Virus record (IMG/VR): IMGVR_UViG_3300008108_000002
Location: 1-64,000 of that record
Strand: one strand, 5' to 3'
Length of the DNA stretch: 64,000 bases
Source: a virus
Under the pieces are notes generated by a model that did not search any database, had not been told where the DNA came from, and was given only the letters and a program-made list of their open reading frames with translations. Made by a program: the position numbers and the translations under genes. Position 1 is the stretch's first letter. Every line of letters starts with the position of its first letter. Of the stretch, positions 5,254 to 61,455 are shown in pieces.

Positions 5254-6018
5254 TTATTTACTAGCAATAATGCTATTAGTGATAGAACTGTCAATTATAT
5301 CAGGAATGAATGGATCAAGCAAGATCATTTGGTCCCCTGCTATACCATTTCTAATTAAACCCTGTCCCGAAATACGTAGTAAACTTCCAGGTTGTGTTTT
5401 TGGGTTAACTGTTACTGCTAAAGTTTTACCACTGATAGTAGTAAACTCAAAGCTATCACCTACGATTAGATCCAAAACACTTATTTTGTGTGTAGAGTAC
5501 AAGTTCATACCTCTTCTTTCAAATTTATGATGAGGTTTAACTCTAAACTCTACTATAAGTATAGCGTTAGGAAGCATATTTTCATAGCGTATTTGTTGAC
5601 CGTTTTCTATACCTTGTGGTATTTCTACCCTTATGGTTTGGTTAAGGTTATTACCATTGAAATGTAATACCTGTTCTCCGCTAGTGTACACCTGTTCCAA
5701 TGATATCCATACATCGGTTTTGTAGGTTGGATTAGAAGGTTGTTGTCTCTGACTAAACATTTGACCGAATAAATCGTTGATGTTAAATCCTTGGTTAGAG
5801 AAGTGAAATCCACCGGGGAAACCTTGTGCATGTGGATTGTCATAGTCTTGTTTTTTCTGCGGGTCGCTTAATGTGTCATATGCTACTTGAATTTTTTGGA
5901 ACTGGGCAGTATCACCGCCCTTATCCGGGTGATGAATACTTGCAAGTCTACGATATGCTTTTTTTACTTCGTCAGGAGTAGCGTTTTTTGCTACCCCTAA
6001 AATTTGATAATGATCCAT
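5254..6018 (-). CDS. dnaJ: DnaJ-like J-domain co-chaperone
   Basis: Residues 1-60 form a J-domain with the HPD motif in HHPDKGGD. A Gly/Phe-rich stretch follows (GFPGGFHF and onward), then two DnaJ C-terminal beta domains. The CxxCxGxG zinc-binding repeats of full DnaJ are absent, so it is of the CbpA (type II) kind. It would stimulate host DnaK and deliver clients. The start codon is six bases from a TATAAT -10 element and no Shine-Dalgarno is seen, so the mRNA may be leaderless. The ClpA-like gene starts 18 bases downstream. Confidence 0.9.
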   Translation of the reverse strand: MDHYQILGVAKNATPDEVKKAYRRLASIHHPDKGGDTAQFQKIQVAYDTLSDPQKKQDYDNPHAQGFPGGFHFSNQGFNINDLFGQMFSQRQQPSNPTYKTDVWISLEQVYTSGEQVLHFNGNNLNQTIRVEIPQGIENGQQIRYENMLPNAILIVEFRVKPHHKFERRGMNLYSTHKISVLDLIVGDSFEFTTISGKTLAVTVNPKTQPGSLLRISGQGLIRNGIAGDQMILLDPFIPDIIDSSITNSIIASK

Positions 6019-6024
6019 CTGATA

Positions 6025-6052
6025 ATTATAACACCTTAGTGTTAAAAGTCAA
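6025..6052 (-). promoter_or_regulatory. Sigma70-type promoter of the dnaJ-clpA unit
   Basis: TTGACT, 16 bp, TATAAT on the minus strand. The -10 ends six bases before the ATG at 6018. The spacer holds an inverted repeat TAACAC-ctta-GTGTTA (6029-6044) that overlaps the -10 and could be an operator. Confidence 0.75.
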
Positions 6053-6672: not shown

Positions 6673-7212
6673 TTATAATCCAGCTTTTGCTATAAAATCT
6701 TTTAGTATGTTATCTTTTTCAAAATACACATTGTGCGGTTCTAATCCAGCACGACTACGCATCTCATTGAGATCCGTTTCTTTTAATTTTCTATACTCAT
6801 GTGGACTTAGTATTATTTTAGATTTTAATAATTCCACAGTAACTTCATGTTCTTCTTCGTCAATGATTACAGACCAATCTTTTAAAGAAAGATCAGTTAA
6901 TGTATCCATATCTTCTATCATTTCAATAATACGTTCAGGTGTTCTTGTTCTACGATCCATTTCAACAAATACTAAATATTTGCCTGGACTTACTTCACCT
7001 TCGCTTGTTTGTGCATCTAGTACATAGTCATAACCACGCTCTAACCAATCTACTAAATCTTCTGCAACTTGTTTGCCCTTAACCGTGAAAGTCACTGTAA
7101 CGATTTCGTCATCATCGCCCATTTTAGCTTCATACTTATCTATTGTTGCTATAGGTACTACCATGTTTTCTAAATCATGGTAATCTAATGTTTCATTAAT
7201 AATTTTTCTCAT
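6673..7212 (-). CDS. Hypothetical acidic protein
   Basis: 179 residues, strongly acidic (DDDEIVTV, DEEEHEVTVE), with alternating beta-like and helical stretches and no recognised motif. The start overlaps the stop of the upstream gene (TAATG) behind a GGAGGT ribosome site, so the two are translationally coupled. Position beside the holin and in a late unit suggests a virion or assembly role, but nothing proves it. Confidence 0.7.
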   Translation of the reverse strand: MRKIINETLDYHDLENMVVPIATIDKYEAKMGDDDEIVTVTFTVKGKQVAEDLVDWLERGYDYVLDAQTSEGEVSPGKYLVFVEMDRRTRTPERIIEMIEDMDTLTDLSLKDWSVIIDEEEHEVTVELLKSKIILSPHEYRKLKETDLNEMRSRAGLEPHNVYFEKDNILKDFIAKAGL

Positions 7213-7841
7213 TATAGACCTCCGCCTAGGGGAATTTGTCCGCCTACTGGTAATGCAGGTCCTCCGGGTGCTGGCATGCCTCCCATTTGATCTGCGGGTG
7301 CTTTGCCCTCTTCACCCTCTAAACCTTCTTTATCTAAATCATCATCGTATGCACTATCTAGTTCTTCTAGGTCAATAGTTTGGTCTGCTAAATCAATACT
7401 ACCCTCACGGATATCATTCATCAATTCTCTAGGGATTTCAATTCTAACTAACCAAACCATGCGCTCAGTTAGTTTAGGGTAATGTGTTCCTGGTTTATAG
7501 TCTTCAGGAGTCTTTATATCTACTGGTACTTTAATTGTAGTTTTCTTAAACTGTATAGTGCATCCTAAATTTATTAAACGTTTGCCACCTCTTGGGTCTG
7601 GCATTAGTTTTTCAGGATACATAAAAATGCAAGAAACACTATATCGTTTACTGTCCGGACCGTCTACTAGTTCACCTAGTCCCCAGTTTTTGTATGCATA
7701 CAAGTCAGCTTCATCCAAAACACGTTCAAAATCTAATAAAGTGTTAATGGAAGCATCACTGGTATATATACCCTTGACAGTATCTATAATACTAGGGTAA
7801 TCAATGTTGGTAAAGAAATCGTCTGCTGGAAGTTTGCTCAT
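7212..7841 (-). CDS. Hypothetical protein with Gly/Pro-rich tail
   Basis: 209 residues: a folded-looking part (1-160), an acidic stretch around 160-180 (DDDLDKEGLEGEEGK) and a Gly/Pro/Met-rich tail. No family recognised. The ATG follows a GATAAATA late box after only six bases and has no Shine-Dalgarno, predicting a leaderless late mRNA. First gene of a late unit with 6673-7212 and the holin. Confidence 0.7.
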   Translation of the reverse strand: MSKLPADDFFTNIDYPSIIDTVKGIYTSDASINTLLDFERVLDEADLYAYKNWGLGELVDGPDSKRYSVSCIFMYPEKLMPDPRGGKRLINLGCTIQFKKTTIKVPVDIKTPEDYKPGTHYPKLTERMVWLVRIEIPRELMNDIREGSIDLADQTIDLEELDSAYDDDLDKEGLEGEEGKAPADQMGGMPAPGGPALPVGGQIPLGGGL

Positions 7842-7847
7842 AATTAG

Positions 7848-7855
7848 TATTTATC
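7848..7855 (-). promoter_or_regulatory. Late promoter box abutting a start codon
   Basis: GATAAATA followed by CTAATT and the ATG at 7841. Transcription from this box would start at or next to the A of the ATG. Confidence 0.6.
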
Positions 7856-12154: not shown

Positions 12155-12384
12155 TATGATTTGGTAATGTTAATTTTGTTTTCTAAATTTTGTTTCTTGT
12201 ATACTTCATCTATACGGCGGGTGTACTCTGCATTATAGCTTTCTAATGCCATTTGTATTTGCGGAACCAACGTAGGGTGTAGTGTTCTACTAGCTTGAAA
12301 TAACCTAGAATTCAATTGAGAAATAGTTTTCTGCAATTCGTCTATAGTTTTATCTTCTAAGTTATGTATGAAGGGATGTTGCAT
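12154..12384 (-). CDS. Hypothetical helical protein
   Basis: 76 residues from the ATG at 12384 (MQHPFIHNLEDKTIDELQ), mostly helical with heptad-like leucines, so a small coiled coil is likely. An upstream in-frame ATG at 12402 lies inside the preceding gene's end. The 12384 ATG sits four bases after an AATAAATA late box and lacks a Shine-Dalgarno, predicting a leaderless mRNA. Confidence 0.6.
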   Translation of the reverse strand: MQHPFIHNLEDKTIDELQKTISQLNSRLFQASRTLHPTLVPQIQMALESYNAEYTRRIDEVYKKQNLENKINITKS

Positions 12385-12388
12385 TAGG

Positions 12389-12396
12389 TATTTATT
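12389..12396 (-). promoter_or_regulatory. Late box abutting the 12384 start
   Basis: AATAAATA, then CCTA, then ATG. It overlaps the stop codon of the gene upstream. Confidence 0.5.
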
Positions 12397-30702: not shown

Positions 30703-31317
30703 GTTTACTTGCCCGTGTAATGAATCAATACTTCCGTTGTTGTCAATATAGTAGTCGTACAACAATCCTACACTACTGTACTCACTTGCATGAACATTGT
30801 GCCCTTCTAGTATTAACTTGGCTTTTTGATATTGTTCGCTACTTTCAGATTCATTGTTGTAATCAACTGCGGCACTATACCATACTGGACGTGACCCACG
30901 ATTAACTCTCATAGTCACACCACCTACACTTTTAATTGAATTAACTTCATTTGCAAATCTGCAATCAGTAATAACAATATTTTCGTCTGTCTGACGTAGT
31001 TTGTTCTCTACACTAGCAACCCAGATATCTTTATGAAATCCATTACGACAAACTTCTGTTCCCCAATATTGTAGTACCCATCTAGGTGTAATTTCCATAC
31101 CTAATCGGTCACTCCACCAGTCATCACGTTTTTCACGCCATTCTCTACTAGACTTAGTTGAACCCTCTAGTAAATCTCTATTCCAACCAAATACTGCGGC
31201 TACTGCGTCTTTCAATGAGGCCGCAAAACTAACACGTTTGAATCCGTGAAATGTGCAAAGATAGTCAGCAATTGTATCTTTACCTGACCCAATCAATCCT
31301 GTAACTCCAATAATCAT
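30685..31317 (-). CDS. 1: Deoxynucleoside monophosphate kinase (gp1)
   Basis: 210 residues from the ATG at 31317 (MIIGVTGLIGSGKDTIADY, P-loop GLIGSGKD). GTEVCRNGFHKDIWV and VITDCRFANEV match the T4 gp1 dNMP kinase, which phosphorylates dGMP, dTMP and hydroxymethyl-dCMP. The longer frame to 31338 is rejected because AGGAG lies seven bases before 31317. That ribosome site is one arm of a hairpin (31325-31353) spanning the promoter. Confidence 0.92.
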   Translation of the reverse strand: MIIGVTGLIGSGKDTIADYLCTFHGFKRVSFAASLKDAVAAVFGWNRDLLEGSTKSSREWREKRDDWWSDRLGMEITPRWVLQYWGTEVCRNGFHKDIWVASVENKLRQTDENIVITDCRFANEVNSIKSVGGVTMRVNRGSRPVWYSAAVDYNNESESSEQYQKAKLILEGHNVHASEYSSVGLLYDYYIDNNGSIDSLHGQVNSVVNF

Positions 31318-34161: not shown

Positions 34162-34343
34162 TATACTAGGTCCTTAAACATGTTTTTTCTACCTTCTTCC
34201 CCTACAAGCATGTCAAATACTTCTTTGACACGCTGTAACATAGCGCAATTAAGCATAAGCAAGTCACGCCTATCATCGCACATCATAATTTGCTGGTCAA
34301 TCGGCTTGACTAACTCAGTCATACGTTCTTGAATATCATTCAT
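34161..34343 (-). CDS. Small helical hypothetical protein
   Basis: 60 residues from the ATG at 34343 (MNDIQERMTELVKPIDQQIM), Met-rich and wholly helical. The ATG overlaps the upstream TGA (TGATG), so the TTG one codon earlier is not needed. Unrecognised. Confidence 0.6.
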   Translation of the reverse strand: MNDIQERMTELVKPIDQQIMMCDDRRDLLMLNCAMLQRVKEVFDMLVGEEGRKNMFKDLV

Positions 34344-35509
34344 CAAAATGCTTTCAAAATAATCATACCTTCATTAAAGCGGCCATTAGGTGTAGTACTG
34401 ACTGCTTTAATATCTTTAAAGTACTTACGAGCGGCTGGCTTGCTACCCATAATTTCTTTAATCTGCTCTGCCGGTTTACGTAATGTTTTTATTTCACTTT
34501 GTGCAGTATCAAATCCTAACAACGTATTACCTTTGACAGTAAATGTTTTGCTGTAATCATCTGCAACATAATGATGTAACTTGCGTTTTGCTGTATCATA
34601 TACCCAAGCTTCACTTGCACCATGAAGTTTTGTGGGATGTACGCTTGCCAAATCTAACTTACTTGCTGTATCTTTAAATACTTTCAAGTACTTCAATTTT
34701 GCTACCTGTTTCTCTACAGGAACAGCTTTTCGGGCACGTGGGGCTTTTGCCGCTTTCTTAACACTAACGTAACTGTTCAGGTCTCCCAGAACTTGTTCGA
34801 TAAACTTAAGTATATTCTTAATTTGAGTTTTTGTCAAATGCTGGTAACCCTGAACAAGTTGTGCATCCTTGCCCTTTGCAACCTCATCAAACTCGTTTTG
34901 TTTCTTTTTCCATACATCAGCTAACAAACTGATATGTTGTGGCATTACGTTCTTTTTTGCTACTTCATCCATAGGCTTAAATGAATGTTTTGTGGGTGCG
35001 CCTGCTGTAATAAAATCATCAAACATACCTTCAAGTTCGCCTGCCGCATCACGTGCTTTATCTTTCAGAATGTCCTGAATATTCGGACGTGTAGCTGATT
35101 CTTCTTTTTCTTTAGGTATTTCGGGTTTAACTAAACACTTTAATACTCGGGAAATCTCGTTCTGTAATGTAGCTTCCTCATGTTCTGACAGTTCTAACCC
35201 TCTAAGATTCATACGTGCCAACCAGCAGAATGTCATTAGGAATTCACTTTCATGAACCTTACGCATCTTTTTAGCATCTTCTGTGCGGTTGTTATAATCT
35301 AAGTATTGACTTAGTAGTTCCTTAGCATCTTTTTTAGTATAGAAACGGTTATACCAATTGAAGCTTCGGGCTAGTGTAACATTTCGTTTATCCTCATCGG
35401 GTTGCAATGGGAAGAAGGGTTCGTCACCTAAATATTTTGTATCTGCATCTCTTGGGTTCAATGCCTTGACAAAGTGGTCTTCTGTATGTTTGCCTTTACG
35501 TGTAGCCAT
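34343..35509 (-). CDS. Large Lys-rich hypothetical protein
   Basis: 388 residues from the ATG at 35509, which follows AGGAGAGCGC. Lys-rich and helical: EHEEATLQNEISRVLKCLV, a KKAAKAPRARKAVPVEKQ basic linker, then a beta-rich end (SEAWVYDTAKRKLHHYVADD). I recall such proteins in T4-like cyanophages with no assigned role. The basic linker suggests nucleic-acid binding. First gene of a five- or six-gene operon. Confidence 0.65.
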   Translation of the reverse strand: MATRKGKHTEDHFVKALNPRDADTKYLGDEPFFPLQPDEDKRNVTLARSFNWYNRFYTKKDAKELLSQYLDYNNRTEDAKKMRKVHESEFLMTFCWLARMNLRGLELSEHEEATLQNEISRVLKCLVKPEIPKEKEESATRPNIQDILKDKARDAAGELEGMFDDFITAGAPTKHSFKPMDEVAKKNVMPQHISLLADVWKKKQNEFDEVAKGKDAQLVQGYQHLTKTQIKNILKFIEQVLGDLNSYVSVKKAAKAPRARKAVPVEKQVAKLKYLKVFKDTASKLDLASVHPTKLHGASEAWVYDTAKRKLHHYVADDYSKTFTVKGNTLLGFDTAQSEIKTLRKPAEQIKEIMGSKPAARKYFKDIKAVSTTPNGRFNEGMIILKAF

Positions 35510-39813: not shown

Positions 39814-40272
39814 TTAATCGTTGTTTTCAACTGATACTTTTTCATAATCAGTACCAGGAGTAGTACCAGCAGCCGCTGTAGTAAAGAATGACAACAAATA
39901 CTTAGTATCTGAAAAGTCTAATGCCCATTTGTTTGTCATAGTAGAAAAACGAATTGGGTCTCCGTTATTATCAGTTGCAGTGATTGTCATGTCATCATCT
40001 GCTAAACTATCATCAGCAACATCAGCCAATGTACATACACCGGTATTTACACCGTCAGTGACTAAGTACTTACGTTTTGCTTTTTGACGTAAGATATACC
40101 CGTCTGCTTCTGCGTTTGCGCCAATCTTTACACGTACTACTACGTTAAGACTTACGTTATTTCCACCAACTACTCCTATTCCGTTACCGTTAAATCCGTT
40201 ATCTGTTGTACCGTCATTTGGGAATCCGATATCGATTGTTGAGTCTTTTGCTATTTTAAGTGGTCTTGCCAT
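39814..40272 (-). CDS. Putative virion (decoration-type) protein
   Basis: 152 residues: MARPLKIAKDSTIDIGFPND, then GNNVSLNVVVRVKIG, GYILRQKAKRKYLVTDG, TGVCTLAD and KWALDFSDTKY. I recall this as a conserved, unnamed small structural protein of T4-like cyanophages. Strong late promoter, long leader with a GC-rich hairpin, AAGGAG site and its own terminator suggest high expression, which fits a head decoration protein; not proven. Confidence 0.7.
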   Translation of the reverse strand: MARPLKIAKDSTIDIGFPNDGTTDNGFNGNGIGVVGGNNVSLNVVVRVKIGANAEADGYILRQKAKRKYLVTDGVNTGVCTLADVADDSLADDDMTITATDNNGDPIRFSTMTNKWALDFSDTKYLLSFFTTAAAGTTPGTDYEKVSVENND

Positions 40273-40353
40273 TTGTTTTCTCCTTGAATATTGTGGGTTC
40301 TATCCACTACGCGGGGGGACCGCATAAACTCCCCGAATTGAGAGTGTATTATA

Positions 40354-43542: not shown

Positions 43543-44229
43543 TTATAGGAACTGTGAATAGTATTTGTCTAAACGTTCAAACCAGACAGTAGAATATTTG
43601 TCGAACTCAGAGCCTTCTAAGATAAACTCCTGATAGATATTGTCAGCAGAACACATGAAAATGACACCTTTACGTATCTTTGTACCGTGTACTTCATTAT
43701 GTGCGTTAGCATAGGCTGCTAATTGAACAAAGTAGTCTTCGATCCACTCACGCTTTTTAGGTTTATTAGTTTGTTTATGATCCATGATAGCTTCATTGCC
43801 ATCATGTATACCTACTAAGTCTGTCGTCCCTGCATAAATCTTCGGAAAGTAGAGCGGCACTTCTGTACCCCACCATTCACTGCAGTTAACAAGACCTTGA
43901 TTAATGATAGTTTGCGCCATAATATGGCTTTGCAAGCTATACGGATTGCTTCCGGGCTCACCTGTTGCTCCTGTCTTAATATAATTCTCAAGCCATTTGT
44001 GCATTCGTGTTCCACGGCCTGCGGCTTCAGTTGTAATCTCTTGTGCTTTTTGATGTCCTACTCGGTTACGCCACTCTTGCAAAGCTTTTTTACTTTCTTC
44101 ACTTTTAGTAGCTTCTAATACAGTAGTAACACTGGGTAGTTTTTCACCATCCGGAGTAGCATAGCGGCGTTTGCCGTCTACTTCCACTCTACTCATGGGA
44201 ACGTAGTTATATTTATTTGGTATGTACAT
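43543..44229 (-). CDS. RecB/Cas4-like PD-(D/E)XK exonuclease
   Basis: 228 residues. GRGTRMHKWLE (His77), AGTTDLVG (Asp137), IMDHKQT (Asp150-x-Lys152) and QLAAYANAH (Gln169-x3-Tyr173) give the full RecB-type nuclease order. Relatives in T4-like cyanophages are called exonucleases. The ATG at 44229 is six bases from a TACAAT -10 and lacks a Shine-Dalgarno. An alternative start at 44196 (MSRVEVDGKRRY) is closer to the relatives' start and follows an AATAAATA at 44210-44217. Confidence 0.82.
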   Translation of the reverse strand: MYIPNKYNYVPMSRVEVDGKRRYATPDGEKLPSVTTVLEATKSEESKKALQEWRNRVGHQKAQEITTEAAGRGTRMHKWLENYIKTGATGEPGSNPYSLQSHIMAQTIINQGLVNCSEWWGTEVPLYFPKIYAGTTDLVGIHDGNEAIMDHKQTNKPKKREWIEDYFVQLAAYANAHNEVHGTKIRKGVIFMCSADNIYQEFILEGSEFDKYSTVWFERLDKYYSQFL

Positions 44230-44235
44230 ATGGTA

Positions 44236-44264
44236 ATTGTACTACACTTTTACATGTAATACAA
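44236..44264 (-). promoter_or_regulatory. Sigma70-type promoter of the exonuclease gene
   Basis: TTGTAT, 17 bp, TACAAT; six bases from -10 to the ATG at 44229. Confidence 0.65.
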
Positions 44265-45874: not shown

Positions 45875-46328
45875 GTAACACCTCAAAGTATATATTTTTA
45901 AGCTCAGGACTTATATCTAAGAAATTAGGTAACTTGTCCCACTCATTCAATTTAGTAAGCATTGGTACGCTATCACAGTCAGTGTACAATGCTCCTAATT
46001 CTGTTATCCCATCGTCAAATACACTATAGTAATTTACAGTGAAATTAAATGCCCATTTAGGTACAGGTTTATCTTCAGTAGAATCAAACAAAAATCCAAA
46101 ATGCTGAAACTCTGTAAATGTAATATCTTGTTTTTCAGGTACTGTTATGTCTTCAGGTTGTGAGCGCAATGATATAACTTGCAGTACTGTGTCAAAATTA
46201 CATTGACGGTTTCTATCATTATTCCATCGCTTCAAAGCATTCTCATCTAAGTTAGATGGTGGTTTTCTATTTAATACACCAGTATTTGTAATATCAAATA
46301 ATGTGTGGCATCTAATTTTAGTAGTCAT
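45867..46328 (-). CDS. Conserved hypothetical protein
   Basis: 153 residues starting MTTKIRCHTLFDITNTGVLN. I recall this start as conserved in T4-like aquatic phages. Beta-rich in the middle (PKWAFNFTVNYYSVFDDG). Role unknown. The ATG lies four bases after an AATAAATA late box with no Shine-Dalgarno, another predicted leaderless late mRNA. Confidence 0.65.
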   Translation of the reverse strand: MTTKIRCHTLFDITNTGVLNRKPPSNLDENALKRWNNDRNRQCNFDTVLQVISLRSQPEDITVPEKQDITFTEFQHFGFLFDSTEDKPVPKWAFNFTVNYYSVFDDGITELGALYTDCDSVPMLTKLNEWDKLPNFLDISPELKNIYFEVLHD

Positions 46329-46332
46329 GCTG

Positions 46333-46340
46333 TATTTATT
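46333..46340 (-). promoter_or_regulatory. Late box abutting the 46328 start
   Basis: AATAAATA, then CAGC, then ATG. Confidence 0.5.
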
Positions 46341-49495: not shown

Positions 49496-50921
49496 ACTTT
49501 TTAAGATTGTTCAACATTGATTTTAATTTACTGCCCTGAACATCTGCCATAACACGATTTGTAACTGGTTCTAATTCTGATTCTATTTTATTATTAAATC
49601 CAACATTATTGTCAACTACAGTAGATTGAGTCCGTAATTTACTCATAATATCATTGGGACTTGAATGAGTTTGTTGCTTATCCCCATATCCCTCAGGATC
49701 GCTATCTGTGATACGCATGGTATCAATACTATATTCTAAATCAATTTTCTGACCTACGCCTGTTGAGCTACGTGATTTCATGCATTGAATCTGATACTTC
49801 CCACGCTCACGCATACTACGACTTGTAAAGATACCAAACACATTATCTGCTGTATTAATCTTACTGATACCACCTGCAATGTGACTATGATCGAACTCAA
49901 TTTCTTCAACAGCACTACGATTTAACTGAGATGCTGTGACCATAAGAATACCTAATTCTTTTGCTAAATTACGTAATTCTTCTGAAACATATTTGTCTTT
50001 AATAAACTGATCGTTAGGATTAACTTTGACTGATACAGGCATAACGAGATCCAAATAGTCAATCATTACAAAGTCAACTTTGATTCCTGTCTGAATCTGA
50101 ACTTCTTTCAAATATGAACGAATGTCATTAACATTACTTTGTGCAGGCAAACCTTTGACACGATATTGTCCTGACTTCTTACCTACCATCTTAACTCTAA
50201 GTTCAGTGCCCTCAATATCTTTACGAATATCTCGGGTACTCATACTTGTTAACATTGCATCTGTACGCAATGACGTTAGTTCTTCGCTAAGTTCCAATGA
50301 AACATAAACACCACTTAATCCTTGTTGTAACCAGTTCAATGCAATGTTCATCATGACCAATGATTTACCTGAACCTGAGCCACCTGCAAAGATATTCAAT
50401 TCACCACGACTAAAGCCACCATACAACAATCTATCCATCTGGGGCCAACCTGTACTAACTTGTCCACCTGCATTAAAATATTTGTTGATACGACTTTTAG
50501 GATCAGCGAAATAATCTGTACCCATGTCTCTTTGCAAACTGATTTGTACCGCATCTTTGATTAGTTTCTCAACAGGACCAAAATCTCCCTTCTCAAGCAT
50601 ATCGGCTGACTTAAGAATTGCACGTTCTAGTTCTTGTCGTTTAGTAAAGGATTCAAATTCTTCTAAGAACCATTCTGTATGTTTTTCTCCGAATTCTTCG
50701 ATTAGTGCAATGTCCATTCCTGTTGTTGCTTTAATCTGTGATATATCCGGAAGTATACTATACTTCTCGCTGTATTCTTTCATAAACTCAGCGACTGGTC
50801 TTATCGATTTATCAAAGTTGTCAGCATTCATAATGTTCATAACTCGGGTATACAATTCCGAATTAGTTAACATCATCTGCAAAAACAATCTTTGTACGTC
50901 TACGTTATAGTCCTTTAGCAA
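49494..50921 (-). CDS. 41: Replicative DNA helicase (gp41)
   Basis: 475-residue DnaB-family helicase. The N-terminal helical domain is followed by STGWPQMDRLLYGGFSRGEL, Walker A GGSGSGKS, VDFVMIDYLDLV (Walker B) and VTASQLNRSA. It unwinds the fork on the lagging strand and partners with the primase encoded just upstream; the genes overlap by 17 bases. Confidence 0.95.
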   Translation of the reverse strand: MLKDYNVDVQRLFLQMMLTNSELYTRVMNIMNADNFDKSIRPVAEFMKEYSEKYSILPDISQIKATTGMDIALIEEFGEKHTEWFLEEFESFTKRQELERAILKSADMLEKGDFGPVEKLIKDAVQISLQRDMGTDYFADPKSRINKYFNAGGQVSTGWPQMDRLLYGGFSRGELNIFAGGSGSGKSLVMMNIALNWLQQGLSGVYVSLELSEELTSLRTDAMLTSMSTRDIRKDIEGTELRVKMVGKKSGQYRVKGLPAQSNVNDIRSYLKEVQIQTGIKVDFVMIDYLDLVMPVSVKVNPNDQFIKDKYVSEELRNLAKELGILMVTASQLNRSAVEEIEFDHSHIAGGISKINTADNVFGIFTSRSMRERGKYQIQCMKSRSSTGVGQKIDLEYSIDTMRITDSDPEGYGDKQQTHSSPNDIMSKLRTQSTVVDNNVGFNNKIESELEPVTNRVMADVQGSKLKSMLNNLKK

Positions 50922-51879
50922 TTTTCTTCCTGTTCATTTCTATTTTAATTTTACTATTTGTTGCACTCTGTAGTATACTCATTAGGGTTGGTAACTTCCC
51001 ATATCTTACTACAGCATCATTAACATCTTTGATATCAGCTTCCCAATTAGGTAAGCTAACTTGATAACCCAATTCTAATGCTCTGTCACACATCTTTAGT
51101 CCTGTCTTATCTCTGTCAGGAACTACAATAATTTGTTTATTTAATGTTGATATTAATTGTGCTTGGTCATTGCTAATGTCATCGTGCATAACTGCGATAC
51201 CGTCAATGCTTAATGCGTCAAATATACCTTCTGTCAATATACACGCACTCCATTGATTCTTCTGTATATCAATATTGAATACGTAACCGGGTTGTTGTTC
51301 GTTAATGTATTTGGGGATTTTGTTGTCTAAGAATCTACTAGTGTGACCAACGATTTTATTCTTATATGTATAAGGGATAACAATACGTTGTGACATTCTA
51401 CCAAACTCACGAGGAGTTACTAAGAAGGGGTAGTCATTATAATTTATCTTGCGTTTACTTAGATAGTCTATGTATACTTTGTGCGCTGGATTATTAGGAT
51501 CAATCAAATCACCATCAGGCAATTGATGATCCTTGAATTTCATTTTGAAATTTATTCGTTTGGGCTGAGTGAAATCTAATATGTCTTTATGTGCTAGACT
51601 TTCTAAGCTCCACTTTTGTATTTGGTCAGTATCAACACCTAACCATGTTAGTAGTTGTTTTGCTTTAGGGGTAATTGTTTTACCTAATGTAAAGTTACAG
51701 CTAAAGCTACAGTTAAAACAATGATAGGTCCAATTAGTAGGGCCATCGAATTTAATTCCGCCCCTATGACGTTTATCTTGTTTATGACCACGATGACTAC
51801 AACACGCCGCATTGAAGCTGTACCAACCACTGTGTGTTAGTTTACGTTTACCCGGTATCAGAGATAGAATATCAAACAT
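50905..51879 (-). CDS. 61: DNA primase (gp61)
   Basis: 324 residues. An N-terminal zinc site reads AACCSHRGHKQDKRHRGG then HCFNCSFSC. TOPRIM elements are ILTEGIFDALSI and VVPDRDKTG. It primes Okazaki fragments with gp41. The ATG at 51879 is six bases from the -10 of a near-consensus promoter and has no Shine-Dalgarno, so a leaderless mRNA is predicted. Confidence 0.92.
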   Translation of the reverse strand: MFDILSLIPGKRKLTHSGWYSFNAACCSHRGHKQDKRHRGGIKFDGPTNWTYHCFNCSFSCNFTLGKTITPKAKQLLTWLGVDTDQIQKWSLESLAHKDILDFTQPKRINFKMKFKDHQLPDGDLIDPNNPAHKVYIDYLSKRKINYNDYPFLVTPREFGRMSQRIVIPYTYKNKIVGHTSRFLDNKIPKYINEQQPGYVFNIDIQKNQWSACILTEGIFDALSIDGIAVMHDDISNDQAQLISTLNKQIIVVPDRDKTGLKMCDRALELGYQVSLPNWEADIKDVNDAVVRYGKLPTLMSILQSATNSKIKIEMNRKKIAKGL

Positions 51880-51885
51880 ACTAGT

Positions 51886-51914
51886 ATTGTAGCATGTTTT
51901 TAGATGTAAGTCAA
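51886..51914 (-). promoter_or_regulatory. Sigma70-type promoter of gp61-gp41
   Basis: TTGACT, 17 bp, TACAAT, six bases, ATG. A palindrome ATACTAGTAT (51878-51887) covers the expected transcription start. Confidence 0.8.
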
Positions 51915-57306: not shown

Positions 57307-57807
57307 TCAGAAAGCCATTGAATAGTCTACTATTTCACAGTTTCGACTAATTTCTTTTACAAAAAATACACATCGTGGTTTGGGGCCATCATCAATAGGC
57401 ACACATAAGAATTGTCCATTTTTTAATCGAGGTGCATACCATGTTACATCTTGGTAAATATCTACAATGTCAATATCCTGAAAGCTAGGTCTGAATGCAC
57501 TCAATGGGTTGAATTCAAATGCTTTGAATCCTCTGTCATTGATACTAGTTAAAGGTAATGTTTCTAAGTCACCCATGTCAGGTTCACCGATAAGTATTTG
57601 CCAATCTACCGGCATCTTAATTTGTTTATCACCAATTCGTAATACTAATGCAGGACTATTAAATGATTCTAAGAATATTAATGGTATGTAATGATAGTCA
57701 ACGTTTTGTGGATTACTATTGTCTAGTATAGCAAAACGCAAATCGTCTACTTCTTCGGGTAATGTTTCTAAGTTATAAAAACGGTCTTCTAATGTTAAAA
57801 TTCTCAT
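57307..57807 (-). CDS. Conserved hypothetical protein
   Basis: 166 residues: RFAILDNSNPQNVDYHYIPL, FLESFNSPALVLRIGD, MPVDWQILIGEPDMGD, LETLPLTSINDRGFKAFEFN and CVFFVKEISRN. I recall it as one of the best-conserved unnamed proteins of T4-like cyanophages. All-beta in look, no catalytic motif. The ATG is six bases from a -10 element without Shine-Dalgarno. Probably transcribed with gp62. Confidence 0.72.
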   Translation of the reverse strand: MRILTLEDRFYNLETLPEEVDDLRFAILDNSNPQNVDYHYIPLIFLESFNSPALVLRIGDKQIKMPVDWQILIGEPDMGDLETLPLTSINDRGFKAFEFNPLSAFRPSFQDIDIVDIYQDVTWYAPRLKNGQFLCVPIDDGPKPRCVFFVKEISRNCEIVDYSMAF

Positions 57808-57813
57808 GTTGTT

Positions 57814-57842
57814 ATTCTATCACAATCTTATCTGTATGTCAA
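57814..57842 (-). promoter_or_regulatory. Sigma70-type promoter upstream of 57807
   Basis: TTGACA, 17 bp, TAGAAT, six bases, ATG. The -35 lies inside the end of the uvsW gene. Confidence 0.8.
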
Positions 57843-59285
57843 CTTTTCTAAGTCGAAAGGGTAATTAGCTTCTTTATAAAAAGTCTTACGTTGGGTCAAG
57901 TGCCGTTTAGCAAACTTACAACTACTGGTTATGTCGTAGATTTGTACATGGTCTTTATCTTCTGCTTTACGAATTCCTCGACCGATGCTTTGGATAACAC
58001 GGACGAATGATTTTCCAGGTTCAATGAGAACCAGATTAAAAATCCTAGGTATGTTGATACCAACAGCAGCCACACCATATGTTGCCACAATAATTTTATT
58101 ACTTGAGGTTGCAACTTCGTCATATTCTTCTTTCCTTTCATTCATATTGGTAGCACCGCTAACAAATACACTACCGGGTAATCTATTAACAATCTCTTTT
58201 CCTGCATTAACCCTATCAACAAGGATCAATGTATTGCCTGTATTATTGATACCACTGATTAAACTAGCAATCTTATCTAATCGTTCACTATCTTCTAGTA
58301 AGTGTTTCAATTCACTCTGATAGTTAGTAAACTCTTTCCCATCTTGTAATTGCATAATATTAACGTGACAACGTGCTAATACACCCTGATCTTGCAATTC
58401 ACTTGCTGATAGTTTACCAATCACATTGCCCAAACTAACAAAGATACTTTGTGCTTCAAACTTAGCTTTAGGGATAGTTCCTGTTAAGCCCCAACGAATG
58501 GGCACTTTAGCAAATACACTTGTAAGTAATGTTTTGAGTGCGTCAGCTTTAGCCATGTGAACTTCATCGACCATAACACAAACTACATCTTCAATGAAGT
58601 CACCGATCTCTACTTCAGCTTCACCACTCTTTGTTTTCTTAAGCATGTTATTTAAACTCTGCCAAGTGCATATGGTATGTGTCTTGTTGTATTCTTTACG
58701 ATCACCAAAGTATACACCAACATCTAATCCTAGATTAATGTAGTCTGCCTCTGTCTGTGTTACTAATGATTTGTTTGGAACGATAACAATACTACGTCCA
58801 TACTTCTCAATACTATAGCTTAGTGCGGCAGTCATCAATGTCTTACCTGCACCTGTAGCAATCTCTTGCAATGACTGTGGGTTCTCTAGGAAGTTATTAA
58901 CAATTTCAATTTGATAGTCACGTAGTACTACTGGCTTACCTTCTTGTGGATGACCTTTAGGCCAGTTCTTATGTTTGAATGTATCCTCTGAAACTTTGTC
59001 AAAAGTAAAGGTTGTAGTATAGTCTCTTAGGTCTTCTAAGTCAATATCATATCCAATACGATCCAGTACTGGTAATATTTCTGGTAACAGGTTAATGTAT
59101 GTACTTCCGGCTAAACTGAAGTAACTAACCTTACCATTCCATCTACCTAGTCTGACTGCAGGTAGATACCTTGCTCCGGGTATTTCATATTCAAACATCT
59201 TCATCAGAGTTTTTCGTTCCGATAAATCAAGTCCTTCTATTTTTACATTAACTTCGTCTTTGACAATTATTTTACATTGTTTCAT
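57828..59285 (-). CDS. uvsW: UvsW-like DNA helicase
   Basis: 485-residue superfamily-2 helicase: LRDYQIEIVNNFL, Walker A ATGAGKT, DEVHMAKA (Walker B), TGTIPKAK (motif III) and SIGRGIRKAEDKD (motif VI). The N-terminal 100 residues match the UvsW DNA-recognition part (YEIPGARYLPAVRLGRWNG). UvsW resolves recombination forks and R-loops and turns off origin replication late. Overlaps the HARP-like gene by four bases. Confidence 0.93.
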   Translation of the reverse strand: MKQCKIIVKDEVNVKIEGLDLSERKTLMKMFEYEIPGARYLPAVRLGRWNGKVSYFSLAGSTYINLLPEILPVLDRIGYDIDLEDLRDYTTTFTFDKVSEDTFKHKNWPKGHPQEGKPVVLRDYQIEIVNNFLENPQSLQEIATGAGKTLMTAALSYSIEKYGRSIVIVPNKSLVTQTEADYINLGLDVGVYFGDRKEYNKTHTICTWQSLNNMLKKTKSGEAEVEIGDFIEDVVCVMVDEVHMAKADALKTLLTSVFAKVPIRWGLTGTIPKAKFEAQSIFVSLGNVIGKLSASELQDQGVLARCHVNIMQLQDGKEFTNYQSELKHLLEDSERLDKIASLISGINNTGNTLILVDRVNAGKEIVNRLPGSVFVSGATNMNERKEEYDEVATSSNKIIVATYGVAAVGINIPRIFNLVLIEPGKSFVRVIQSIGRGIRKAEDKDHVQIYDITSSCKFAKRHLTQRKTFYKEANYPFDLEKLTYR

Positions 59286-60283
59286 TTTATTGTTACCGGG
59301 GTACTATTTACAACTTGTATCACTTTGTCTGCACTTATTTCTATTGCAGTATTGATGGTATGTGCTGGGCAGATTACTACATAGTTTTTTAATGTGTTAT
59401 TACTCACATTACTTTTTGTAACTATCTCTATATTCTTTTCTTTTAATCCTATAACCAAATCCATCAATAAGCTAGAAAAACTATGTGTTACGGATAACAC
59501 TACAGCTTCACAACCAATCAATGGTAGTAGTTCTACTAGGTCTGTTAATTGAGATTTTTCTATTTCGGGACGTGTATTAGCGGCAAACTTTAATACATCA
59601 TCTATGTATAATGATTTATCTATTTCTACACCATACGTAGCTAACTTAGAAAAGCATAAAGGCGTCTTTTCTAATGGAATGTCTATAATTGATTCATGTA
59701 AGTATTCGTTTATACCAGCAATTAACAAATTACCGGACACTTCACATAATGTAGGATTCCATACTTTAATATGTTCAAACTGTTCAGCCACAATTAACAT
59801 GTGTTTAATGTCATCACAGAAATTAATTAGCTTATAGTTATCTGCAATGAGTGTTACTATTTTTTTCAAATTGGGTTCATTATAGTTTACAGTCCACTCT
59901 CGTTTATCTTTATCCCAATCACTGGTATTAATGTTTCTAAGTTCTTTGATAAAGTTTGTTTTATAGGGAGTACGTATGACTATCTTACCATTATCTAATT
60001 GTGCATATGCTGTAGTATATTCAGGTGAACTATTAATAGGTTCCTTTTTCCATGAAAGGTTTACTAACATATTAGCATCTAGTTCTTGTTTGGCTAATTG
60101 TCTAGCATATCTAATTGTTATCTTATTCAATAACTCTGCTTGATTAGTAGTTACAGGTTTGCCGGCACCTATGAAATTAATTTCAATGTTAGATAAGAAT
60201 CGATTGTCATAGGAACCTAAACTAACATTATGCAATAGATAATGTATCAGTTGTTCTTTTGTAGTAGGTTTCACTTTTGACAT
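59282..60283 (-). CDS. HARP-domain-like protein
   Basis: 333 residues. IVIRTPYKTNFIKELRNI, then WDKDKREWTVNYNEP and a following helix fit the HARP domain of SMARCAL1-type annealing helicases (a WDxxxKxW core). No helicase motif is present in this protein, but uvsW follows with a four-base overlap. The pair may work as a two-part annealing or fork-remodelling machine (inference). The ATG is six bases from TATAAT with no Shine-Dalgarno. Confidence 0.7.
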   Translation of the reverse strand: MSKVKPTTKEQLIHYLLHNVSLGSYDNRFLSNIEINFIGAGKPVTTNQAELLNKITIRYARQLAKQELDANMLVNLSWKKEPINSSPEYTTAYAQLDNGKIVIRTPYKTNFIKELRNINTSDWDKDKREWTVNYNEPNLKKIVTLIADNYKLINFCDDIKHMLIVAEQFEHIKVWNPTLCEVSGNLLIAGINEYLHESIIDIPLEKTPLCFSKLATYGVEIDKSLYIDDVLKFAANTRPEIEKSQLTDLVELLPLIGCEAVVLSVTHSFSSLLMDLVIGLKEKNIEIVTKSNVSNNTLKNYVVICPAHTINTAIEISADKVIQVVNSTPVTIK

Positions 60284-60289
60284 ATTAAT

Positions 60290-60318
60290 ATTATAGTACT
60301 TATGATAGTAGAAAGCAA
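60290..60318 (-). promoter_or_regulatory. Sigma70-type promoter of the HARP-uvsW unit
   Basis: TTGCTT, 17 bp, TATAAT, six bases, ATG. TTGCTT also resembles a T4 MotA box, but the spacing fits a -35 better. Confidence 0.8.
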
Positions 60319-60426: not shown

Positions 60427-61455
60427 TTATGCTTTCATACAAGTTGTCTTAGCAAGATTCTGCCAGTTGTTGGGGCTAATCTTAACTAAGTCTGCAATCT
60501 TCAAACACATACGCAAGGACACTTCACGCAATTTAGTGTGATTGTCCCACATAAAGCTAATCACGGTTTGTGATTGTTCTTCAGTAAAATCATAATCTTT
60601 GAACAAACCACCATCAGCGTCACGATGTACTTGCTTGATACGCAACATCTTGTCACGATCACCATCAATAGTCAAGTCAAGAAAGTGACAACGTGACTGC
60701 AATGCCTCTAAGTGATCCTGCAATTTCTTAGACTTCAAGTTGCCGAATTTCAAGTTAGTGATAAAGATAGCACTACCATTGAAGTTGAAAGTATTCGGGA
60801 TACCTTCTTCACGCAACAACCGACTGTCAGAGTTCCAGCAAATTCTACGTGTCTTGCCTGAATCAAGTGCGGCCTTTAGAATGTTCAAACTCAAGTCATC
60901 AGTAAAAACTGAATCGCAATCATCAAAAATTAACACATTCTTTGTGTCAGAATACTTGTACAGTTGAGTATACAAACCCAATGCTGTCATAGCACCTTTA
61001 ACAATCTGAAAACGCACACGTTTGCCTGCAAGCTTGTCAAACATGCTTGCTTTCTCCATTTGTGTCTCAACACCATATGATTTGCCGACACCGGGCGGGC
61101 CTGAAACAATCATAGCACGAATATCACCATTGATACATGCACGTGACATTTCATCAAGGACCTCAAAACGAGTAGCAATACGGTCCATTGCTTCTTGTTC
61201 TGTTTCTTTCACAACTTCTTTCTTAAACTCTACTACAGCATTAGCCATAACTTTATCTCCATTTAAAAATTCAATATTATCAATCGTATCTACTAAAACT
61301 TTAATTTCAGCACTACGACCCGGGAATTGACCATCATTTTTAACAGTCACATAACTACCTTTTTTACTTGTCTGAAAACCCTTGACAAGTGTAAACACTT
61401 CACCTTTAACTGCTTCATTGCGATAAGAACCTGACAAAATGCGAACTGTAGACAT
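60427..61455 (-). CDS. AAA+ ATPase
   Basis: 342 residues. Walker A VSGPPGVGKS near 120, Walker B VLIFDDCDS, sensor ITNLKF and an Arg-finger-like SRCHFLDL. An N-terminal 80-residue beta domain (YRNEAVKGEVFTLVKGFQTS) looks like an SH3-like barrel. It is not gp44 and not a known T4 gene. I recall similar ATPases in aquatic T4-like phages, unnamed. Monocistronic with a strong promoter, AGGAG site and terminator, so early high expression is likely. Confidence 0.8.
   Translation of the reverse strand: MSTVRILSGSYRNEAVKGEVFTLVKGFQTSKKGSYVTVKNDGQFPGRSAEIKVLVDTIDNIEFLNGDKVMANAVVEFKKEVVKETEQEAMDRIATRFEVLDEMSRACINGDIRAMIVSGPPGVGKSYGVETQMEKASMFDKLAGKRVRFQIVKGAMTALGLYTQLYKYSDTKNVLIFDDCDSVFTDDLSLNILKAALDSGKTRRICWNSDSRLLREEGIPNTFNFNGSAIFITNLKFGNLKSKKLQDHLEALQSRCHFLDLTIDGDRDKMLRIKQVHRDADGGLFKDYDFTEEQSQTVISFMWDNHTKLREVSLRMCLKIADLVKISPNNWQNLAKTTCMKA

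Follow-up and report, generated by a model that had tools for sequence, protein, structure and literature searches.

Promoters of two classes abutting start codons point to leaderless mRNAs in an uncultured T4-superfamily phage from a lake

In the genome of an uncultured lake phage, a sigma70 promoter (TTGACA-17-TAGAAT, 57813-57842, minus strand; -10 box at 57813-57818, -35 box at 57837-57842) stands immediately before a gene for a 166-aa conserved phage protein of unknown function (phrog_11279; 57307-57807, minus strand), leaving exactly six bases (AACAAC) between the -10 box and the ATG, and raising the question of whether the message has any leader at all. The window analysed comprises bases 1-64,000 of the 180,035-base virus record IMGVR_UViG_3300008108_000002, a member of the T4 superfamily (referred to here as G000). 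The genome carries a T4-type gene set (UvsW helicase, primase, SbcCD-type gp46/47, terminase, gp20 portal, gp23-type head protein and gp55-type late sigma), and 166 genes were called with our own gene finder, giving 94% coding. Protein by protein, the nearest cultured phages are jumbo members of the T4 superfamily (Phosso, Atu_ph07, PA5oct, RaK2 and 121Q types) at 30-56% identity. A megablast comparison with cultured phages gave no match, and close relatives are abundant among IMG/VR viral contigs. The phage has no tRNA genes, and thyA has a best cellular match of only 52% in a species collection, so that neither pointed to a host. The genome also contains a permuted (two-piece) tmRNA (genome 94131-94560, minus strand; L003:10131-10560), with a predicted tag ANDSQFLLAANA that ends in ANA, the usual end being LAA, as well as an Rfam 'freshwater-2' cis-regulatory RNA (window 40270-40345, minus strand, 66 bits) directly upstream of the gene at 39814-40272, and its largest open frame spans 5367 codons (111327-127430, minus strand).

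A sequence-only reading of the window had described five such starts (6018, 44229, 51879, 57807 and 60283), and the sequence bears out all five, which lie on the minus strand, each with a sigma70 -35 and a -10 box that ends exactly six bases before the ATG. Besides the gene at 57807, they involve a DnaJ-like J-domain protein (5254-6018; promoter at 6024-6051, TTGACT-16-TATAAT-TATCAG-ATG), an exonuclease (PD-(D/E)XK-like, phrog_298, 43543-44229; promoter at 44235-44264, TTGTAT-17-TACAAT-TACCAT-ATG), a DNA primase (phrog_47, 50905-51879; promoter at 51885-51914, TTGACT-17-TACAAT-ACTAGT-ATG) and a 333-aa protein of unknown function and no recognized family upstream of uvsW (59282-60283; promoter at 60289-60318, TTGCTT-17-TATAAT-ATTAAT-ATG). 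All five genes are predicted to be leaderless. The promoter of 44229 is the weakest of the five, at 8.9 bits; a candidate -35 element TTACAT was rejected there for its wrong spacing, and TTGTAT at 17 was taken instead.

Promoters were scored genome-wide with a fixed sigma70 weight matrix, its values being rounded approximations of published E. coli frequencies; the gap was defined as the number of bases between the end of the promoter box and the start codon, and a cut-off of at least 9 bits was applied. Counting the distance from -10 box to ATG over the whole genome, the check that the sequence-only reading had proposed, gives a peak at six bases: seven of the 166 called genes lie at gap 6, compared with 0.16 expected per position, and the adjacent gaps hold 0 genes each (Poisson P 5e-10, or 3e-8 corrected for 60 positions). 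The count rises to eight if the alternative start 44229 is added, the gene finder having called a later start there. Three of the genes at gap 6 lie outside the window, at 77606 (thymidylate synthase, ThyA), 93956 and 138913 (gp47, SbcD-like). AT-rich DNA offers TATAAT-like words everywhere, and the fitting ones might simply have been picked; when ATGs are counted after each such word in the raw sequence, regardless of called genes, gap 6 is indeed only weakly over-represented, and counting at called gene starts is therefore needed. At real starts, however, the excess is the seven against 0.16 given above, three cases come from sequence outside the window, and three relatives, along with homologs, repeat the pattern, which refutes chance and leaves it a negligible probability.

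The comparison covered five environmental phages, namely the phage under study, its relatives G001, G002 and G003, and the more distant G006. By the same procedure, G001, G002 and G003 have 5, 7 and 6 genes at gap 6, compared with 0.15-0.34 expected, and the early peak is weak in G006 (2 genes). Among distinct homologous upstream regions, gathered by protein similarity alone, the -10 box of the 57807 gene lies at gap 6 in 51 of 54, and the best promoter of gp47 does so in 49 of 70. For the exonuclease, 30 of 46 distinct homologs have gap 6 and 10 more have 7-8, and the primase has gap 6 in 15 of 25 and 7-8 in 6 more, with no Shine-Dalgarno site (SD). Homologs of the DnaJ-like gene, at 53-54% identity, are of leaderless type in G001 (gap 7) and in G002 and G003 (gap 6), and many homologs of the 60283 gene have TATAAT about six bases before an ATG, their N-termini aligning poorly. 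ThyA is an exception, with a gap-6 promoter here and in some relatives and no promoter in 37 of 53 upstream regions. Overall, orthologs hold the promoter spacing at 53-85% protein identity, and for early and late genes alike the exact distance recurs across hundreds of related viruses. When 91 non-redundant homologous upstream regions are anchored only at the ATG, TTG emerges at -35 to -33 and TANAAT at -12 to -7, with no SD and nothing conserved from -6 to -1. These are the textbook coordinates of a sigma70 promoter, if the A of the ATG is read as +1.

The absence of an SD is the second part of the pattern. In the five environmental phages pooled, an SD of at least 4 bases within 18 nt is found in 3 of 28 genes at gap 5-7, compared with 77 of 119 at gap 13-59 (Fisher 2.5e-7, the genomes being related and thus not fully independent). 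SD-like words do occur near 6018 (AGGTG) and 57807 (GTGA), but both fall within promoter sequence that precedes the predicted +1, and so would not be transcribed, such that no SD is found in the predicted transcribed leader of the sigma70-type genes. The genes named previously as having longer leaders (31317, 35509, 61455, 61859 and 62296) do carry AGGAG, AAGGAG or GAGG; examples are the gene at 34343-35509 (minus strand), whose promoter stands 27 bases upstream and whose leader contains AGGAG, and the phrog_1250 gene at 60427-61455 (minus strand), where the promoter is 34 bases upstream and the AGGAG leader is kept in homologs. In one relative (L026), the 57807 homolog has lost the -10 box and has a GGAG leader instead, with ATT as the codon at the start position, and the same genes have SD-type leaders in cultured relatives (AAGGAGG in PHA46, AGGAG in CBB, AAAGG in PA5oct), from which single genes appear to switch between SD-led and leaderless modes in evolution. 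The gene at 31317, SD-led here with its promoter 21 bases upstream and AGGAG, has an 86%-identical G001 ortholog that scores as leaderless at gap 6, a possible case of such a switch.

The assignment of start codons matters to this argument, as the ATG could instead be part of a promoter or regulator motif, with the true start at an SD-led codon downstream. Such downstream starts were raised by the sequence-only reading as the case against itself. Homologs align from residue 1, the 57807 gene among them; the codons right after the ATG are conserved (MFDI, MYIPNKYN, MRILTL), and the J domain of the DnaJ-like protein starts directly at MDHYQILGV, leaving no room for a downstream start at 6018. 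N-terminal homology thus supports the start codons of the leaderless genes, and with no point found in favour of downstream starts, that explanation is very unlikely.

A second promoter class has the same arrangement, in a two-way split that the sequence-only reading had missed. In each of the five environmental phages, ATAAATA, the core of the T4 late box, shows a 20-35-fold enrichment ahead of gene starts, and the phage under study has both the TATAAATA-type box and a gp55-type sigma gene (137954-138856 of its genome), as expected of T4-type late genes. In all five, the late promoters NATAAATA are bimodal, lying either 4-7 or about 16-27 bases before the ATG, with almost none between. The short-gap boxes number 7 in G000, 12 in G001, 7 in G002, 13 in G003 and 10 in G006. 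In the window, a T4-type late promoter GATAAATA (box 7848-7855; 7842-7855, minus strand) lies 6 bases before the ATG at 7841 of a virion structural protein (phrog_12928, 7212-7841, minus strand), a predicted leaderless late gene whose orthologs have gap 5 in G001, G002 and G003. A late promoter AATAAATA (box 12389-12396; 12385-12396, minus strand) lies 4 bases before the ATG at 12384, its ortholog having gap 5 in G003, and a possible late promoter, also AATAAATA (box 46333-46340; 46329-46340, minus strand) and a weaker case, lies 4 bases before the ATG at 46328. Elsewhere in the genome, the true start of the terminase is placed at 70914, with a late box at gap 6 (gap 5-6 in orthologs of three relatives), and the terminase is predicted to be leaderless. 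The same prediction applies to the portal (146859), although its late box is short-gap only in the nearest relatives and variable further out, and is therefore not taken as strong evidence.

The spacing of the late class is informative because it differs slightly from that of the early class. The short-gap mode is 5 in G001, G002 and G003, the three closest relatives, and 6 in G000 and G006; the late class, at gaps 4-7, is looser than the sigma70 class. The T4 late box occupies -13 to -6 (PMC1524935), so that a gap of 5 would put the A of the ATG at +1, just as a gap of 6 does for sigma70. In G001-G003, the three best-populated genomes, the late mode is thus one base off the early mode, in the direction that fits each polymerase, a strong argument that the constraint on position in both classes is that +1 coincides with the A of the ATG.

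This bears on the most serious rival, in which the promoters are real but longer polycistronic messages account for most of the translation, by coupling or otherwise independently of an SD, and the promoter abuts the ATG through genome compactness. The genes are tightly packed, with the 57807 promoter overlapping the end of the uvsW gene, and many other genes have a weak SD or none (an SD of at least 4 bases is present in 82 of the 166). Compactness, however, predicts a spread of short gaps, whereas the observed genes fill gap 6 and leave gaps 4, 5, 7 and 8 almost vacant, and the mode of the late class is a different one that fits its own start site. The polycistronic explanation is accordingly considered improbable, though better placed than chance or downstream starts; upstream read-through may still be an additional source of expression. 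The direct observations (promoter anatomy, exact spacing, conservation, N-termini and absence of an SD) are best explained by leaderless mRNAs as a conserved, genome-wide second initiation mode in this phage, and the probability that these genes are transcribed into leaderless mRNAs is put at roughly 0.88. The core claim of the sequence-only reading, that the promoters set +1 at this A and that the genes lack an SD and are hence leaderless, is supported by the genome-wide gap count, by three relatives and by homologous upstream regions from many contigs.

In the proposed mechanism, the six bases that separate the -10 box from the ATG would lead host RNA polymerase with sigma70 to begin the RNA of the early genes at the A of that codon, and the phage late polymerase, with the gp55-type sigma, would likewise start the late RNAs at the A from NATAAATA boxes that end about five bases before the ATG. 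The resulting 5'-AUG message, having no SD, would be bound by the ribosome directly at its end, alongside ordinary SD-led initiation in the same phage. Ribosome loading at the 5' AUG of leaderless mRNAs is established in E. coli (PMC3160421, PMC12340547); by analogy, entry at the 5' AUG and reading by 70S ribosomes may be expected here, whereas the further suggestion of the sequence-only reading, that host stress may favour such messages, is speculative. Genes whose products are known or expected to be required in low amounts (primase, exonuclease, SbcD-like gp47, DnaJ, terminase, portal) would tend to be leaderless, and the major head protein (151664), which has an AGGAG leader, and others keep AGGAG. 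The leaderless mode may suit proteins that are required only sparingly, an impression drawn from few genes.

Among phages, the textbook cases of leaderless mRNA are single genes such as lambda cI, one repressor gene transcribed from PRM. The phage genes described here resemble cI in having a 5'-terminal AUG, predicted from sequence, and no SD, but comprise replication as well as virion genes and are served by promoters of two classes. Lambda is where leaderless initiation was first found, and genes of this kind are familiar from bacteria (PMC3160421); one phage paper notes in an aside that transcripts of phages often lack a leader (PMC5312081). The closest bacterial parallel is in Deinococcus-Thermus, with a '-10 region adjacent to ORF' (PMC12340547): as in other bacterial leaderless genes, a -10 (TANNNT) lies about 6-7 bases before the ORF, with no SD. 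In those bacteria, however, the arrangement belongs to the cell and often lacks a -35; here it belongs to a phage, mostly comes with a -35-like element, and reaches into a phage-specific late promoter.

The trait is not shared by all T4-superfamily phages, short-gap promoters being absent or nearly so in T4, P-SSM2, Atu_ph07 and PA5oct. T4 has the same late box (TATAAATA), a gp55-type sigma gene and the same type of gene set, but none of its late boxes comes within 12 bases of a start, and it lacks a sigma70 peak at 6; P-SSM2 and Atu_ph07 have one late box that close each and PA5oct two, and Atu_ph07, like T4, has 0 genes at sigma70 gap 6. Pseudomonas phage PA5oct, among the nearest cultured relatives by protein identity, has no genome-wide peak, and its homologs of the 57807 gene and gp47 have AGG-type leaders; its exonuclease has TATAAT-7-ATG, and its primase, TTGACA-17-TATAAT-6-GTG, is its one gap-6 gene. 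The annotated start of that primase (145884; L432, PA5oct 145884-145910) follows the -10 box of a perfect consensus promoter but precedes the +1 predicted for it, and the true start is likely to be the second GTG (145890), six bases after TATAAT. The cultured pelagiphage HTVC008M, which infects Pelagibacter, shares the short-gap late boxes, with nine exactly 5 bases before an ATG, but has only one gene at the early gap of 6. Its short-gap late genes, which match the depositor-annotated starts where checked, include the tape measure, DNA end protector, tube cap and wedge initiator; the literature searched contained no account of leaderless genes in this phage.

Leaderless genes as such were already known; the new part is the two-class genome-wide arrangement in T4-type phages, for which no description was found in the literature searched (many subscription journals being outside the search), and the short/long split of T4-type late promoters is new here. 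The start-site annotation is corrected for the terminase here and for the primase in PA5oct, and HTVC008M and PA5oct are direct experimental systems. A wider proposal, which is tentative and rather unlikely, is that an abundant aquatic T4-like clade together with HTVC008M runs SD-led and leaderless programmes of translation in parallel, set gene by gene through promoter position, both for the sigma of the host and for the late sigma of the phage. If true, the leaderless set would be separately controllable, e.g. spared when SD sites are cut or initiation factors are limiting. For common freshwater T4-like phages and a cultured pelagiphage, though not for T4, the sequences thus indicate a second mode of initiation that is conserved and genome-wide, which bears on how protein dosage may be set in such phages.
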